Part shown: positions 27,328-36,044 of the stretch, piece after piece | Numbering within the stretch: the first letter of the stretch is position 1 | Layout of the letters: every line of letters begins with the position of its first letter | Assembly (NCBI GenBank): GCA_028280415.1 | Contig: JANQLV010000073.1 | Location: 1 to 36,044, forward strand | Source: Saprospiraceae bacterium | GTDB lineage: Bacteria; Bacteroidota; Bacteroidia; Chitinophagales; Saprospiraceae | Reading direction: 5' to 3' | DNA length: 36,044 nucleotides | Notes under the pieces: model-generated | The model's database searches: none | Told to the model about the DNA's origin: nothing | The model's input: only the letters and a program-made list of their open reading frames with translations | Translations under genes and position numbers: made by a program

Positions 27328-29991
27328 CTAAACTTTTCTCCACATACGCCAGGTCATTCGCGCACAGATTCTGTGGTGCAGTTTTGGACAATAAGTCTTG
27401 CAAATTAGCTCTATCTCACTGGGCTTGATAGACGGACTTTGTAATAAATCATTCGGAATCTCAACATTGATTAAATCTTTTTCTGCATCCAGATTTTTCA
27501 GACCAAAAGTTCTGATCGTGAGACACTCTATATCCTTATTGATCTTTTCAACATCAATAATATAAGACATCGCACCAATGGCATCCTCGTGGTGAATTTT
27601 ATTAATATGCATCGTATCGAGGATTTCATGATCGATAGCAAAACGCAGGTCTCGACTGGCTGATCCGTGGATCATAGGAATGATAAAACCACCACAGACC
27701 ACGAGGCCCTCCATCCCGTAACGCGCATTATTGATATGCAACGGGTGGGTGTTTTTATACAGTGTACTGTAGGCAAGACTATTACTTAAGCCCATTGGTC
27801 GGGTAATGCTGTGAAAGATTAATTCATCTTTTTCAAACTTTGCCTGGTTTTGCACTAAGGGAGAATTTATTTTCTTGACTTCCCGCAAGATTTTGTGCCG
27901 GAGATAGTGGTAAGGCTCTTCTTCAAAAAATGCATAATCCCTGTGATGCTTCTGTGGCTGTCCGGGGCGGATATTTATGGGATCGATAAAAGGGAAAAGC
28001 GAGTTCCGGTTCATGCTGACAACCCGTTGATTATGTTGATTAATCAAAAGCATCCGGGTTTTAAAAATCGTATACTTTTTATTCGAAGAAGTAACGATAT
28101 CATCCAGAATCATTACTGATCGCAAGGTGTCACCAGGATATGCCGGCCGCTCGTAGATTACATTGCTGATCCCCAGATGAAACAGGCTGGATTCTGAAAA
28201 ATTCTCAACGACCAGGCAGAGTCCCAGATTTACGAGATTTTGAAAAGGAATCAATCTGCCTTTTAAACCTAATCTTTTACAAAATTCTGCACTGGTTTCT
28301 AATGGATTCCCGGTCTGAACCATACTCTGCCAGGAAGTAATCCAGGATTCGTCGATGGTAACCTCATAAGGACTGTTGATGATCTGTCCCGGGAATGCTT
28401 CCTTATAATCTAAACCGTAACGAATAGCCCGGCCTTTTCTCGAAGATACTTTTGATCTCATTGGTTGATATATTCTTTTTTTAAGTTCCGTTTTTATCTT
28501 TTTTATGATAGGAGGTGCTACAAATTCATCGTCGATGATTTGACATCCTCCTTTATACTGATTTAAAATATGCTCGTATTTATTTTTTTTATCAGGGCTG
28601 AGCCCAAAAATAGAATTGATTTTTTCCTGTTGTTCAAAAGTCAGAGCTACTTTTCCATCCAGCCCCATTTTCATACTATCCAGCGCATCTTTTTCCAGAC
28701 CGGGAATATTCTTTACATCTTCAAAGGGCGTATCGAAAGCATATAATCCGGCTTCTTTTGCCGCACTTAAATAGAGCATGCGTACCGTATGAAGATTGAG
28801 CATATTTCTTTGTGCATGCAATGCTCCGAATAAATCTGCATGGCCCAAAAACATTGCAATATTCCGCGGAGATGCTTTGGCGATTTCATTAGCTTTATTC
28901 AATGCTTCCGGGGTTTCGATGATCGGGAAAAAACGAAAAGTCTGATCTGGTAAACCTAGCTTTTTTTCCATCTTGCTGATTTTGTGATCATAGGTTTTTA
29001 CATCATCCGGACTCCTTAGCATTGGTAAGGCAAAAGCATGAATTTTCTTTGTATAGCGGATGCCAAGATCTTTTTCCAGTTCTGCTGTTTTTTCCAGCTC
29101 ATTAAGTCGAACTACAATGAAATGATGATCCAGCGTATTCAGGTTCGCATGCTTTTCGATGAGCATTCTGGCCAGTGGTTTTTTATCGACCGGGCATCCA
29201 TCTTCCAGGTCCAGAGCCAGCCAGTCCATTTCCCGGATATACGGGATACGGGCGAAGGTACGTTCATTGAAGGTTTGCAAAAAAATACATGATCTAAAAC
29301 CTGGTTGGCGCGTATTGGTATGCTCCAAGGTGTCCAGATGATTTGTAATCATATAGCTTTCTATAGCCAGTGCTTTAATTCTGGCGGCATACACGCCTTC
29401 TCTGAAAAAGGACCTTTTTGTCAGATCAATAATGCTGGAGGTAATAGTGTCGATCCTGCCACGCTCTTCGACCAGACTCAGATCATCACTACCAATTAAT
29501 AAATCCGTTTTTTGAACGAAGTCCAAATGCAAGTCTTCGGTTTTGAAACAATTTCCAGTACCAGCTTTATTGGCGCTGGAAATAGTGACCAGAACTCCTT
29601 TTGTCCAGGCATACGCTGCCAATCTTGTCATAAAGGGATCTAAATTCATAAAAAAGGCAATAGTGCCATTAGATTTTGTGAGAAAAGGAAGTTTTTGAAC
29701 CGCTGGATGATCATGGTTTACATTTTCAATGAAACCAATTGGCGTGTGAAACTTGAAGACATCTTTTTTGAATTCTGAGGGCGTAAGTTGGTCGAAAATA
29801 TTCGGAGTTGCTAGTATTCCACTCGGCTTTGTATGGGGGCGCTGTTTTAATTTGTATAACTTATTTACACCTTTGGTTGTGATAGCTAAGATTCCATAAC
29901 CTAATTTTGAAGGAAGCACAATGACACCGTCTTTGATAAGTATGTCAAAAACTCCCTTCACTGTTTTGTGTACAGCAAGAGATTGTAACAT
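27328..29991 (-). CDS. Three-domain fusion: YrdC/Sua5-like, HpcH/CitE-like lyase, MaoC/mesaconyl-CoA hydratase-like
   Basis: The 887-residue cytoplasmic protein has three parts. Residues 8-210 match YrdC/Sua5/TsaC (VIVLPSKLGYGILA, LKQRPHTKP, TISSANKAG, TSSIIDLT, FFREGVY), a family that makes threonylcarbamoyl-AMP for tRNA t6A. Residues 228-505 match the HpcH/HpaI aldolase/citrate-lyase-beta family (LALDLEDG with Glu263, VVRLNE, FPIIETPEAL with Glu359, FLGHADLFGAL with Asp386), which cleaves or forms malyl-CoA-type compounds. Residues about 525-880 match a MaoC double hotdog like mesaconyl-CoA hydratase (ERPAYPGDTL, THPLHINNARYG). The last two suggest C4/C5 acyl-CoA chemistry. The role of the YrdC part is unclear. 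The gene starts at an ATG with a -7 box upstream. Confidence 0.8.
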   Translation of the reverse strand: MLQSLAVHKTVKGVFDILIKDGVIVLPSKLGYGILAITTKGVNKLYKLKQRPHTKPSGILATPNIFDQLTPSEFKKDVFKFHTPIGFIENVNHDHPAVQKLPFLTKSNGTIAFFMNLDPFMTRLAAYAWTKGVLVTISSANKAGTGNCFKTEDLHLDFVQKTDLLIGSDDLSLVEERGRIDTITSSIIDLTKRSFFREGVYAARIKALAIESYMITNHLDTLEHTNTRQPGFRSCIFLQTFNERTFARIPYIREMDWLALDLEDGCPVDKKPLARMLIEKHANLNTLDHHFIVVRLNELEKTAELEKDLGIRYTKKIHAFALPMLRSPDDVKTYDHKISKMEKKLGLPDQTFRFFPIIETPEALNKANEIAKASPRNIAMFLGHADLFGALHAQRNMLNLHTVRMLYLSAAKEAGLYAFDTPFEDVKNIPGLEKDALDSMKMGLDGKVALTFEQQEKINSIFGLSPDKKNKYEHILNQYKGGCQIIDDEFVAPPIIKKIKTELKKRIYQPMRSKVSSRKGRAIRYGLDYKEAFPGQIINSPYEVTIDESWITSWQSMVQTGNPLETSAEFCKRLGLKGRLIPFQNLVNLGLCLVVENFSESSLFHLGISNVIYERPAYPGDTLRSVMILDDIVTSSNKKYTIFKTRMLLINQHNQRVVSMNRNSLFPFIDPINIRPGQPQKHHRDYAFFEEEPYHYLRHKILREVKKINSPLVQNQAKFEKDELIFHSITRPMGLSNSLAYSTLYKNTHPLHINNARYGMEGLVVCGGFIIPMIHGSASRDLRFAIDHEILDTMHINKIHHEDAIGAMSYIIDVEKINKDIECLTIRTFGLKNLDAEKDLINVEIPNDLLQSPSIKPSEIELICKTYCPKLHHRICARMTWRMWRKV

Positions 29992-35671: not shown

Positions 35672-35847
35672 TGTTAAGTTTTTAAAAAGTAGAGTTTACT
35701 GAGTATGTTTTTGAAAATCTCACATTAAGCAAATAGGACGGCTCGTGTATGGCATACCGCCTGCAATAAAGATATTGAAAAGATAGCTGCTTAAGAAATC
35801 GAAAAGAAAAACTTTGGAAAATGGAAAGCCAGTGATAATTTTTATTA
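35672..35847. other. Leader region of the sortilin-like gene
   Basis: About 175 bases between the gene start and the heptad array. I find no full TAnnTTTG box on the minus strand and no other feature. Confidence 0.35.
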
Positions 35848-36044
35848 AACCTCGAACCTCGAACCTCGAACCTCGAACCTCGAACCTCGAACCTCGAACC
35901 TCGAACCTCGAACCTCGAACCTCGAACCTCGAACCTCGAACACCGAACACCGAACACCGAACACCGAACACCGAACACCGAACACCGAACACCGAACACC
36001 GAACACCGAACACCGCACACCGAACACCGAACACCGAACACCGA
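35848..36044. repeat. Two-tier heptanucleotide tandem array
   Basis: Thirteen perfect copies of CTCGAAC (35851-35941) are followed without a gap by at least fourteen copies of ACCGAAC (35942-36044), with one variant unit (ACCGCAC, 36012-36018). The array runs off the right edge. Open frames through it encode monotonous heptapeptide repeats on the minus strand and are not genes. It lies about 180 bases upstream of the sortilin-like gene start. Confidence 0.95.

Follow-up and report, generated by a model that had tools for sequence, protein, structure and literature searches.

A three-domain fusion of a YrdC-like domain, a CitE-like lyase and a double-hotdog hydratase in Saprospiraceae

Introduction

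What chemistry might be served by a protein that joins a YrdC/Sua5-like domain, a CitE-like lyase and a MaoC-type hydratase in one polypeptide? The question arises from a contig of a Saprospiraceae bacterium (GenBank assembly GCA_028280415.1, JANQLV010000073.1), of which the whole stretch of 36,044 nucleotides analyzed here is called the window. An earlier note on this DNA, made from its letters, described such a gene, knew of no enzyme with this order of domains and proposed that an ATP-dependent activation may be coupled to C4/C5 acyl-CoA chemistry, or else that the YrdC domain regulates by binding a ligand. No published description of the order was found by literature search among the matches listed, judged by title, and no paper combining the fusion's terms was found either.

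Proteins of the Pfam family PF01300, which includes YrdC, TsaC/Sua5 and YciO, are frequently annotated as enzymes of tRNA t6A synthesis. For YciO this annotation has been argued to be wrong, and its function is described as still unsolved (excerpt of PMC12506659). YrdC-like domains also occur within larger enzymes: HypF and TobZ are ATP-dependent fusions of YrdC-like with Kae1-like domains that use carbamoyl phosphate (excerpt of PMC10321239). The protein studied here shares with HypF and TobZ the placement of a YrdC-like domain in a larger enzyme, but differs in its lyase and hydratase partners.

Architecture of the gene

The three-domain fusion is confirmed. The open reading frame, the Pfam matches and a hotdog profile agree with the earlier description of a single 887-codon frame joining YrdC/Sua5-, CitE- and MaoC-type domains (Table 1). 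Pfam places Sua5_yciO_yrdC on residues 17-199 (40.3 bits, cut-off 25.1, E 3e-10) and HpcH_HpaI on residues 233-449 (91.7 bits, cut-off 25, E 5.5e-26); MC_hydratase matches residues 535-685 with 18.1 bits, which is below the cut-off of 26.5 (E 0.0016). The YrdC and MaoC segments, for which the earlier note regarded a missing profile match as fatal, were thus both matched, the MaoC segment under Pfam's own cut-off. A C-terminal profile built from three relatives matches 4e3e, a MaoC-domain dehydratase presumably of Chloroflexus, over positions 16-319 (profile positions 19-318; E 8.4e-10) and 8hgn chiefly over the first hotdog (E 3.4e-5); as the match to 4e3e spans both hotdogs, both halves of a double hotdog are present in the third domain.

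The motif positions reported earlier were found again, namely K49-R51 within KLKQRPHTKP (47-56), SSAN (138-141), E263, E359, D386 and N747-THPL-H752. That these residues are kept holds for KxR, SxN, E359, D386 and N747/H752, but not for E263, which is Gln in three of the five proteins compared. Apart from the fusion, its genome contains no PF03328 match at E <= 0.001. An AlphaFold prediction from three rows reached a pLDDT of 38.1, and no conclusion was drawn from the model. Residue roles in the YrdC, hotdog and lyase parts follow excerpts of PMC10321239, PMC10164722 and PMC3832036, respectively.

Table 1. Position of the fusion gene and its parts in the window
Feature	Coordinates	Strand	Basis
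Whole gene, 887 aa + stop	27328..29991	-	ATG start; in-frame homologues in L017, L018, L119
YrdC/Sua5-like domain, residues 1-215	29347..29991	-	Pfam PF01300 17-199, 3e-10; subfamily tree
ATP-site motif KxR (K49-Q-R51)	29839..29847	-	Invariant in 4/4 fusions; role per PMC10321239 (excerpt)
ATP-site motif SxN (S139-A-N141)	29569..29577	-	Invariant in 4/4 fusions
CitE-like (HpcH/HpaI) lyase domain with lid, residues 233-500	28492..29295	-	PF03328 5.5e-26; RipC NCBIfam 233-500
E359, Mg ligand by homology	28915..28917	-	Alignment; PMC3832036 (excerpt)
D386, Mg ligand by homology	28834..28836	-	Alignment; PMC3832036 (excerpt)
A492 replacing lid aspartate	28516..28518	-	Alignments
N-terminal hotdog, residues 525-690 (S599, R662)	27922..28419	-	Profile match and alignment
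C-terminal hotdog, residues 691-887	27331..27921	-	Profile match and alignment
N747-T-H-P-L-H752, hydratase catalytic pair by homology	27736..27753	-	Alignment; PMC10164722 (excerpt)

Distribution and neighbourhood of the fusion

A search of other Bacteroidota, as the earlier note had suggested, recovered the architecture three more times. A Saprospiraceae metagenome-assembled genome (MAG; L017) carries the full order with 72.3% identity to the window protein over 887 aligned residues, a member of another genus of the same family (L119) carries it in frame with 32.8% identity, and a Chitinophagales MAG (L018) carries it in frame with 34.7% identity until the contig end cuts the protein after 731 aa. 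Because the order is kept in four genomes, in which the other proteins are 33-72% identical to that of the window, both chance and a frame joined by sequencing from separate genes, the artefact that the earlier note had feared, are ruled out. A 659-aa protein (G1299, L124 8429-10405; 33.7% identity to the window protein) consists of CitE and hotdog parts and lacks the YrdC domain, and among the open reading frames of at least 90 aa in its 19-kb region none encodes a YrdC by profile; the YrdC domain is therefore not always needed. L019, the third locus confirmed in the genome scan, matches only in part, at 24% identity, and was discarded because its reading frame has a chimeric look by eye.

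The distribution is patchy. Counting the window's genome, a full or contig-cut fusion was found in 3 of 59 relatives, 3 of 155 genomes of the family, 3 of 396 of the order and 1 of 395 of the phylum, these samples overlapping, and it is absent from the same-genus genomes G003 (99% complete) and G002 (75%). A one-per-species collection of 84,980 genomes yielded at least two fusions, L119 not being among the matches; this count is a lower bound, since two short lyase patterns were used and genomes that nearly duplicate the window's may be missing from the collection. In IMG/VR, 41 stretches fit a pattern and none was confirmed, while a tblastn search of plasmids returned 200 matching records, none covering 80% of the query. 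Between the window and L017, the YrdC part is 60% identical, against 76-79% for the other parts; no dN/dS is given for this pair because dS is saturated.

The window copy is surrounded by genes for SusC/SusD (SusD by eye), YebC, NUDIX and VPS10-type proteins, that of L017 by a trehalase and an aldose epimerase. With no identified immediate neighbour common to the two, the operon context of the window copy is uninformative. Promoter and terminator scans stayed at chance level. At the end of the window (35682-36041) lie near-identical short repeats, translated as GVRCSVF and RGSRFEV units.

In L119, the fusion is preceded on the same strand by an MDR oxidoreductase gene whose end lies 37 bases short of it. 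L018, which belongs to another family of the order, has this gene in front of its fusion as well; the L018 copy contains a masked stretch and shares 64% identity with that of L119 over 179 aa. The gene thus stands before the fusion in two of four loci. Next to the window copy, the L017 fusion and the bidomain gene, no MDR gene turned up among the immediate neighbours, some of which were scanned with Pfam. The nearest NCBIfam models of the MDR protein are quinone reductases, followed by acrylyl-CoA reductases, with all 25 scores shown lying under the cut-off.

The YrdC subfamily

Besides the fusion, three genes of the window's genome exceed the PF01300 cut-off. One of them, the C41 protein, clusters with E. 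coli YciO (100/99), and another, the C49 protein, carries the Sua5 motifs PGM, HY and APSAN (motifs after an excerpt of PMC10321239). The separate tsaC/sua5 gene that the earlier note had proposed to look for is hence present as a Sua5-type gene, so that the genome need not rely on the fusion for t6A.

Among PDB entries, the best match of the YrdC domain is 3l7v (3.1e-8), the uncharacterized YrdC-fold protein SMU.1377c of Streptococcus mutans, compared with 0.012 for the threonylcarbamoyl-AMP synthase entry 9d3h and 0.72 for E. coli YrdC. SMU.1377c stands alone (295-aa chain; 261 aa in its close relative of L075) with no lyase or hydratase attached, and this relative falls into the clade of the fusions. 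Trees that included five streptococcal-type proteins separate fusion, Variovorax and streptococcal-type YrdC sequences from TsaC, Sua5 and YciO, with supports of 95/90 in a first tree and 98/98 in a second one (99/98 when Variovorax is omitted, 96/99 when the streptococcal rows are); with L119 added the clade reaches 94/94 and its branches are long. We therefore assign the domain by sequence to a TsaC-paralogous subfamily distinct from both TsaC/Sua5 and YciO. Since the branches are long and the four fusion domains form no resolved clade once L119 is added, the fusion may have originated once or more often. The YrdC profile also matched (4.8e-16 to 1e-12) in 26 Bacteroidota genomes other than that of the window. 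These proteins were rejected as members, as they look like ordinary YciO/TsaC-like proteins and all 24 valid rows fell outside the subfamily in the first tree (BAC_L066, a wrong reading frame, was dropped and L048 left out; later trees used 11 of the 24).

The fusion domain has KxR and SxN in common with TsaC/Sua5 and YciO. In the alignment KxR, K55, SxN and R197 are invariant in the four fusions and kept in both proteins of the Variovorax tandem pair described below. Of the threonine-site positions, T33 reads S/S/T/T in the four fusions, S181 varies as S/A/N/N and R195 is Arg. The position of Sua5 N62 is Lys in the fusions.

Genomic company of the subfamily

The sole plasmid match at E 0.01 is a tandem YrdC pair on a Variovorax megaplasmid, where the order reads transporter parts, PEP-mutase/ICL-type lyase, YrdC, YrdC, AMP-binding CoA ligase, LeuC-like and LeuD-like. 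The cluster (L040 7384-14430) resembles an organic-acid catabolic operon.

In G1076, which its likeness to SMU.1377c marks as probably streptococcal, leuA, leuB, leuC, leuD and yrdC follow one another on one strand (L075 7980-13765), the uncharacterized YrdC-like gene immediately after leuABCD. Among 97 genomes of this probably streptococcal family, the YrdC protein occurs in 38, at 85-100% identity, and LeuD in 71; all 38 YrdC-bearing genomes have LeuD, and 33 of the 71 with LeuD lack YrdC. The gene adjoins leuD in 30 of the 38 genomes, including two of eight judged by coordinates, and lies away from it in the remaining eight, while at 28 of 30 fetched loci the two are within 1.5 kb. The co-occurrence has a Fisher P of 1.8e-7, from which relatedness was not removed and which is confounded by descent. 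In the phylum of G784, 398 genomes searched with a profile lacking any streptococcal row yielded only G1076 at E <= 1e-12, so the subfamily is rare or diverse. Of the new hints to function, the occurrence of YrdC together with hydro-lyases in three settings is the strongest, albeit a correlational one; it suggests that this YrdC branch has an unexplored metabolic job.

The lyase and hydratase domains

The barrel and the equivalents of Arg76, Glu141 and Asp168 are common to the fusion and to 3qll, which we take to be RipC, malyl-CoA lyase (4l9y) and CLYBL (5vxc), whereas the lid Asp is replaced by Ala in the fusions and, in two of them, Glu44 by Gln. Across the four fusions and the bidomain protein, D261, D264, R295, E359 and D386 are kept throughout; the E263 position is Glu in two of the five and Gln in three, two of these being fusions. 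All four fusions have Ala at the lid position and the bidomain protein has Gly. Two HMMER alignments (3qll, 1u5h) and two MAFFT alignments agree on this column, which its conservation suggests to be that of Asp299 of malyl-CoA lyase, the printed alignment to 4l9y ending before it, and over the 35 lyase rows, from which the truncated duplicate C2_L014 was dropped, it reads D 12, E 9, G 11 and A 3. The lid Asp is conserved throughout the superfamily with one exception: proteins clustering with a malyl-CoA thioesterase have Glu instead (excerpt of PMC3832036). NCBIfam scores are all below cut-off (RipC 92.6 vs 375; CitE 89.3 vs 443.4; haloarchaeal malyl-CoA lyase 17.3 vs 500).

Outside the fusions, the nearest lyases belong to a Bacteroidota cassette of CitE1, a MaoC protein of about 155 aa and CitE2; of the 10 loci in which such a lyase occurs, 8 have all three genes. 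In place of the usual lid Asp, CitE1 has Glu in all 8 rows and CitE2 Gly in all 10 distinct rows. Judged by title among the matches listed, no published description of this cassette was found. Its loci (L010, L013 and L111-L118, e.g., L113 8067-10210) are by eye of polysaccharide type, and a PglD-like acyltransferase (by eye) mostly adjoins the cassette. Fusion, bidomain and CitE2 lyases split from the lid-Asp lyases with 99/97, in a tree that drew on 6 of the 10 CitE2 lyases of the cassette and 3 of the 9 long lyases, and in a larger tree fusion and CitE2 lyases split from all others with 83/90. The bidomain lyase groups with the fusions (100/98), its placement relative to the gain of YrdC having a support of 47/24.

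The hotdog part shares the double hotdog and the equivalents of Ser79, Arg142, Asn226, His231 and Gly249 with mesaconyl-CoA hydratase (4e3e, 8hgn). S599 and R662 (Ser79 and Arg142) occur in all five proteins, N747 and H752 (Asn226 and His231) in the three full-length fusions and the bidomain protein, the L018 protein ending earlier, and G767 (Gly249) wherever the sequence reaches. The fusion differs from the hydratase in being joined to a lyase and in Phe71, which is replaced by Leu, Asn85 by His and Tyr248 by Cys or Ser.

Discussion

The fusion is a variant built from known families, and the uncharacterized YrdC subfamily is its most interesting part. The architecture and its conservation, the subfamily grouping and the retained ATP, Mg and hydratase residues are observations, whereas substrates, direction and the YrdC reaction are proposals. 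The explanation that we favour, tentatively and at somewhat less than even confidence, is a hydratase-lyase that acts on dicarboxyl-CoA acids and whose YrdC domain uses ATP to activate the substrate. The hotdog would hydrate or dehydrate a dicarboxyl acyl-CoA of C4-C5 type, the lyase barrel would make or break an aldol-type bond in sequence with it, and the YrdC domain, from a subfamily that would work alongside hydro-lyases of branched hydroxy-(di)acids, would most likely spend ATP on activating or conditioning the acid, as an adenylate or carboxy-adenylate, for both. The outline of the earlier note's proposal is thereby supported in part, by the three real domains, the separate Sua5-type gene and the retained ATP and hydratase residues. 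Chemistry on C4/C5 dicarboxyl-CoA is favoured because of the Ser79, Arg142, Asn226 and His231 equivalents and the company that the YrdC subfamily keeps elsewhere; a plain methylmalyl-CoA or citramalyl-CoA lyase is disfavoured because of the lid Ala in all four fusions and the Gln at E263 in two of them. The same two replacements, together with the changed F71, N85 and Y248, also count against our own explanation, as do the bidomain protein without YrdC, the LeuD-bearing genomes that lack the YrdC protein or carry it away from leuD, the missing resolved clade of the four fusion YrdC domains and the different neighbours of the window copy and L017. The YrdC domain need not activate the acid, since the Variovorax cluster has a CoA ligase of its own. 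As to direction, the lost lid base, the MDR gene and the biosynthetic-looking cassettes make us lean toward synthesis, whereas the general family favours breakdown.

A more explicitly synthetic route would be reductive elongation, in which the lyase joins a keto acid to an acyl-CoA by condensation, the hotdog then removes water from the product, the separate MDR protein reduces the enoyl-CoA and the YrdC domain contributes regulation or bicarbonate chemistry. The MDR gene just upstream on the same strand in L119 and L018 is consistent with this, as are the quinone and acrylyl-CoA reductases among its NCBIfam neighbours and the polysaccharide-biosynthesis-like loci (by eye) in which the closest non-fusion lyases lie. 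The gene accompanies only half of the fusions, however, MDR proteins in general are very varied and every family score shown falls short of its cut-off; we regard elongation as rather unlikely. Alternatively, YrdC might be a nucleotide-sensing or structural module without chemistry, leaving catalysis to the hydratase-lyase pair. It is the least conserved part of the protein, its S181 position varies and one homologue does without it, but the invariance of KxR, K55, SxN and R197 across the fusions and both Variovorax proteins, as well as the existence of stand-alone relatives, speak for a reaction, so that we give a silent domain only a limited chance. Very improbable, in our judgement, is that the domain makes threonylcarbamoyl-AMP, acting as an additional t6A enzyme fused with unrelated partners: the KxR and SxN motifs and the R195 equivalent would allow it, but the domain groups apart from TsaC/Sua5, scores 31 bits on TIGR00057 against a cut-off of 123.2 and shares its genome with the Sua5-type gene at C49, whose PGM and HY motifs are in place.

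We speculate, and hold it for improbable, that there is a third, unrecognized branch of the YrdC fold, made up of enzymes that use ATP and perhaps bicarbonate and share work on hydroxy-(di)acids with hydro-lyases. The fusion would then be a small soluble builder of carbon chains that proceeds by decarboxylative aldol condensation, dehydration and MDR reduction, largely on one polypeptide; such a condensation is conceivable because the fusion lyase has lost its enolate-making base.

If this were true, the leuABCD-yrdC arrangement of streptococci, the Variovorax tandem pair and the fusion would all be instances of a third metabolic branch of the YrdC fold. The union of a YrdC domain with a hydratase and a lyase, together with the stand-alone relatives beside leucine-type hydro-lyases, provides a direct clue that part of PF01300 does acid metabolism, and the fusion offers a testable substrate class on a single protein.
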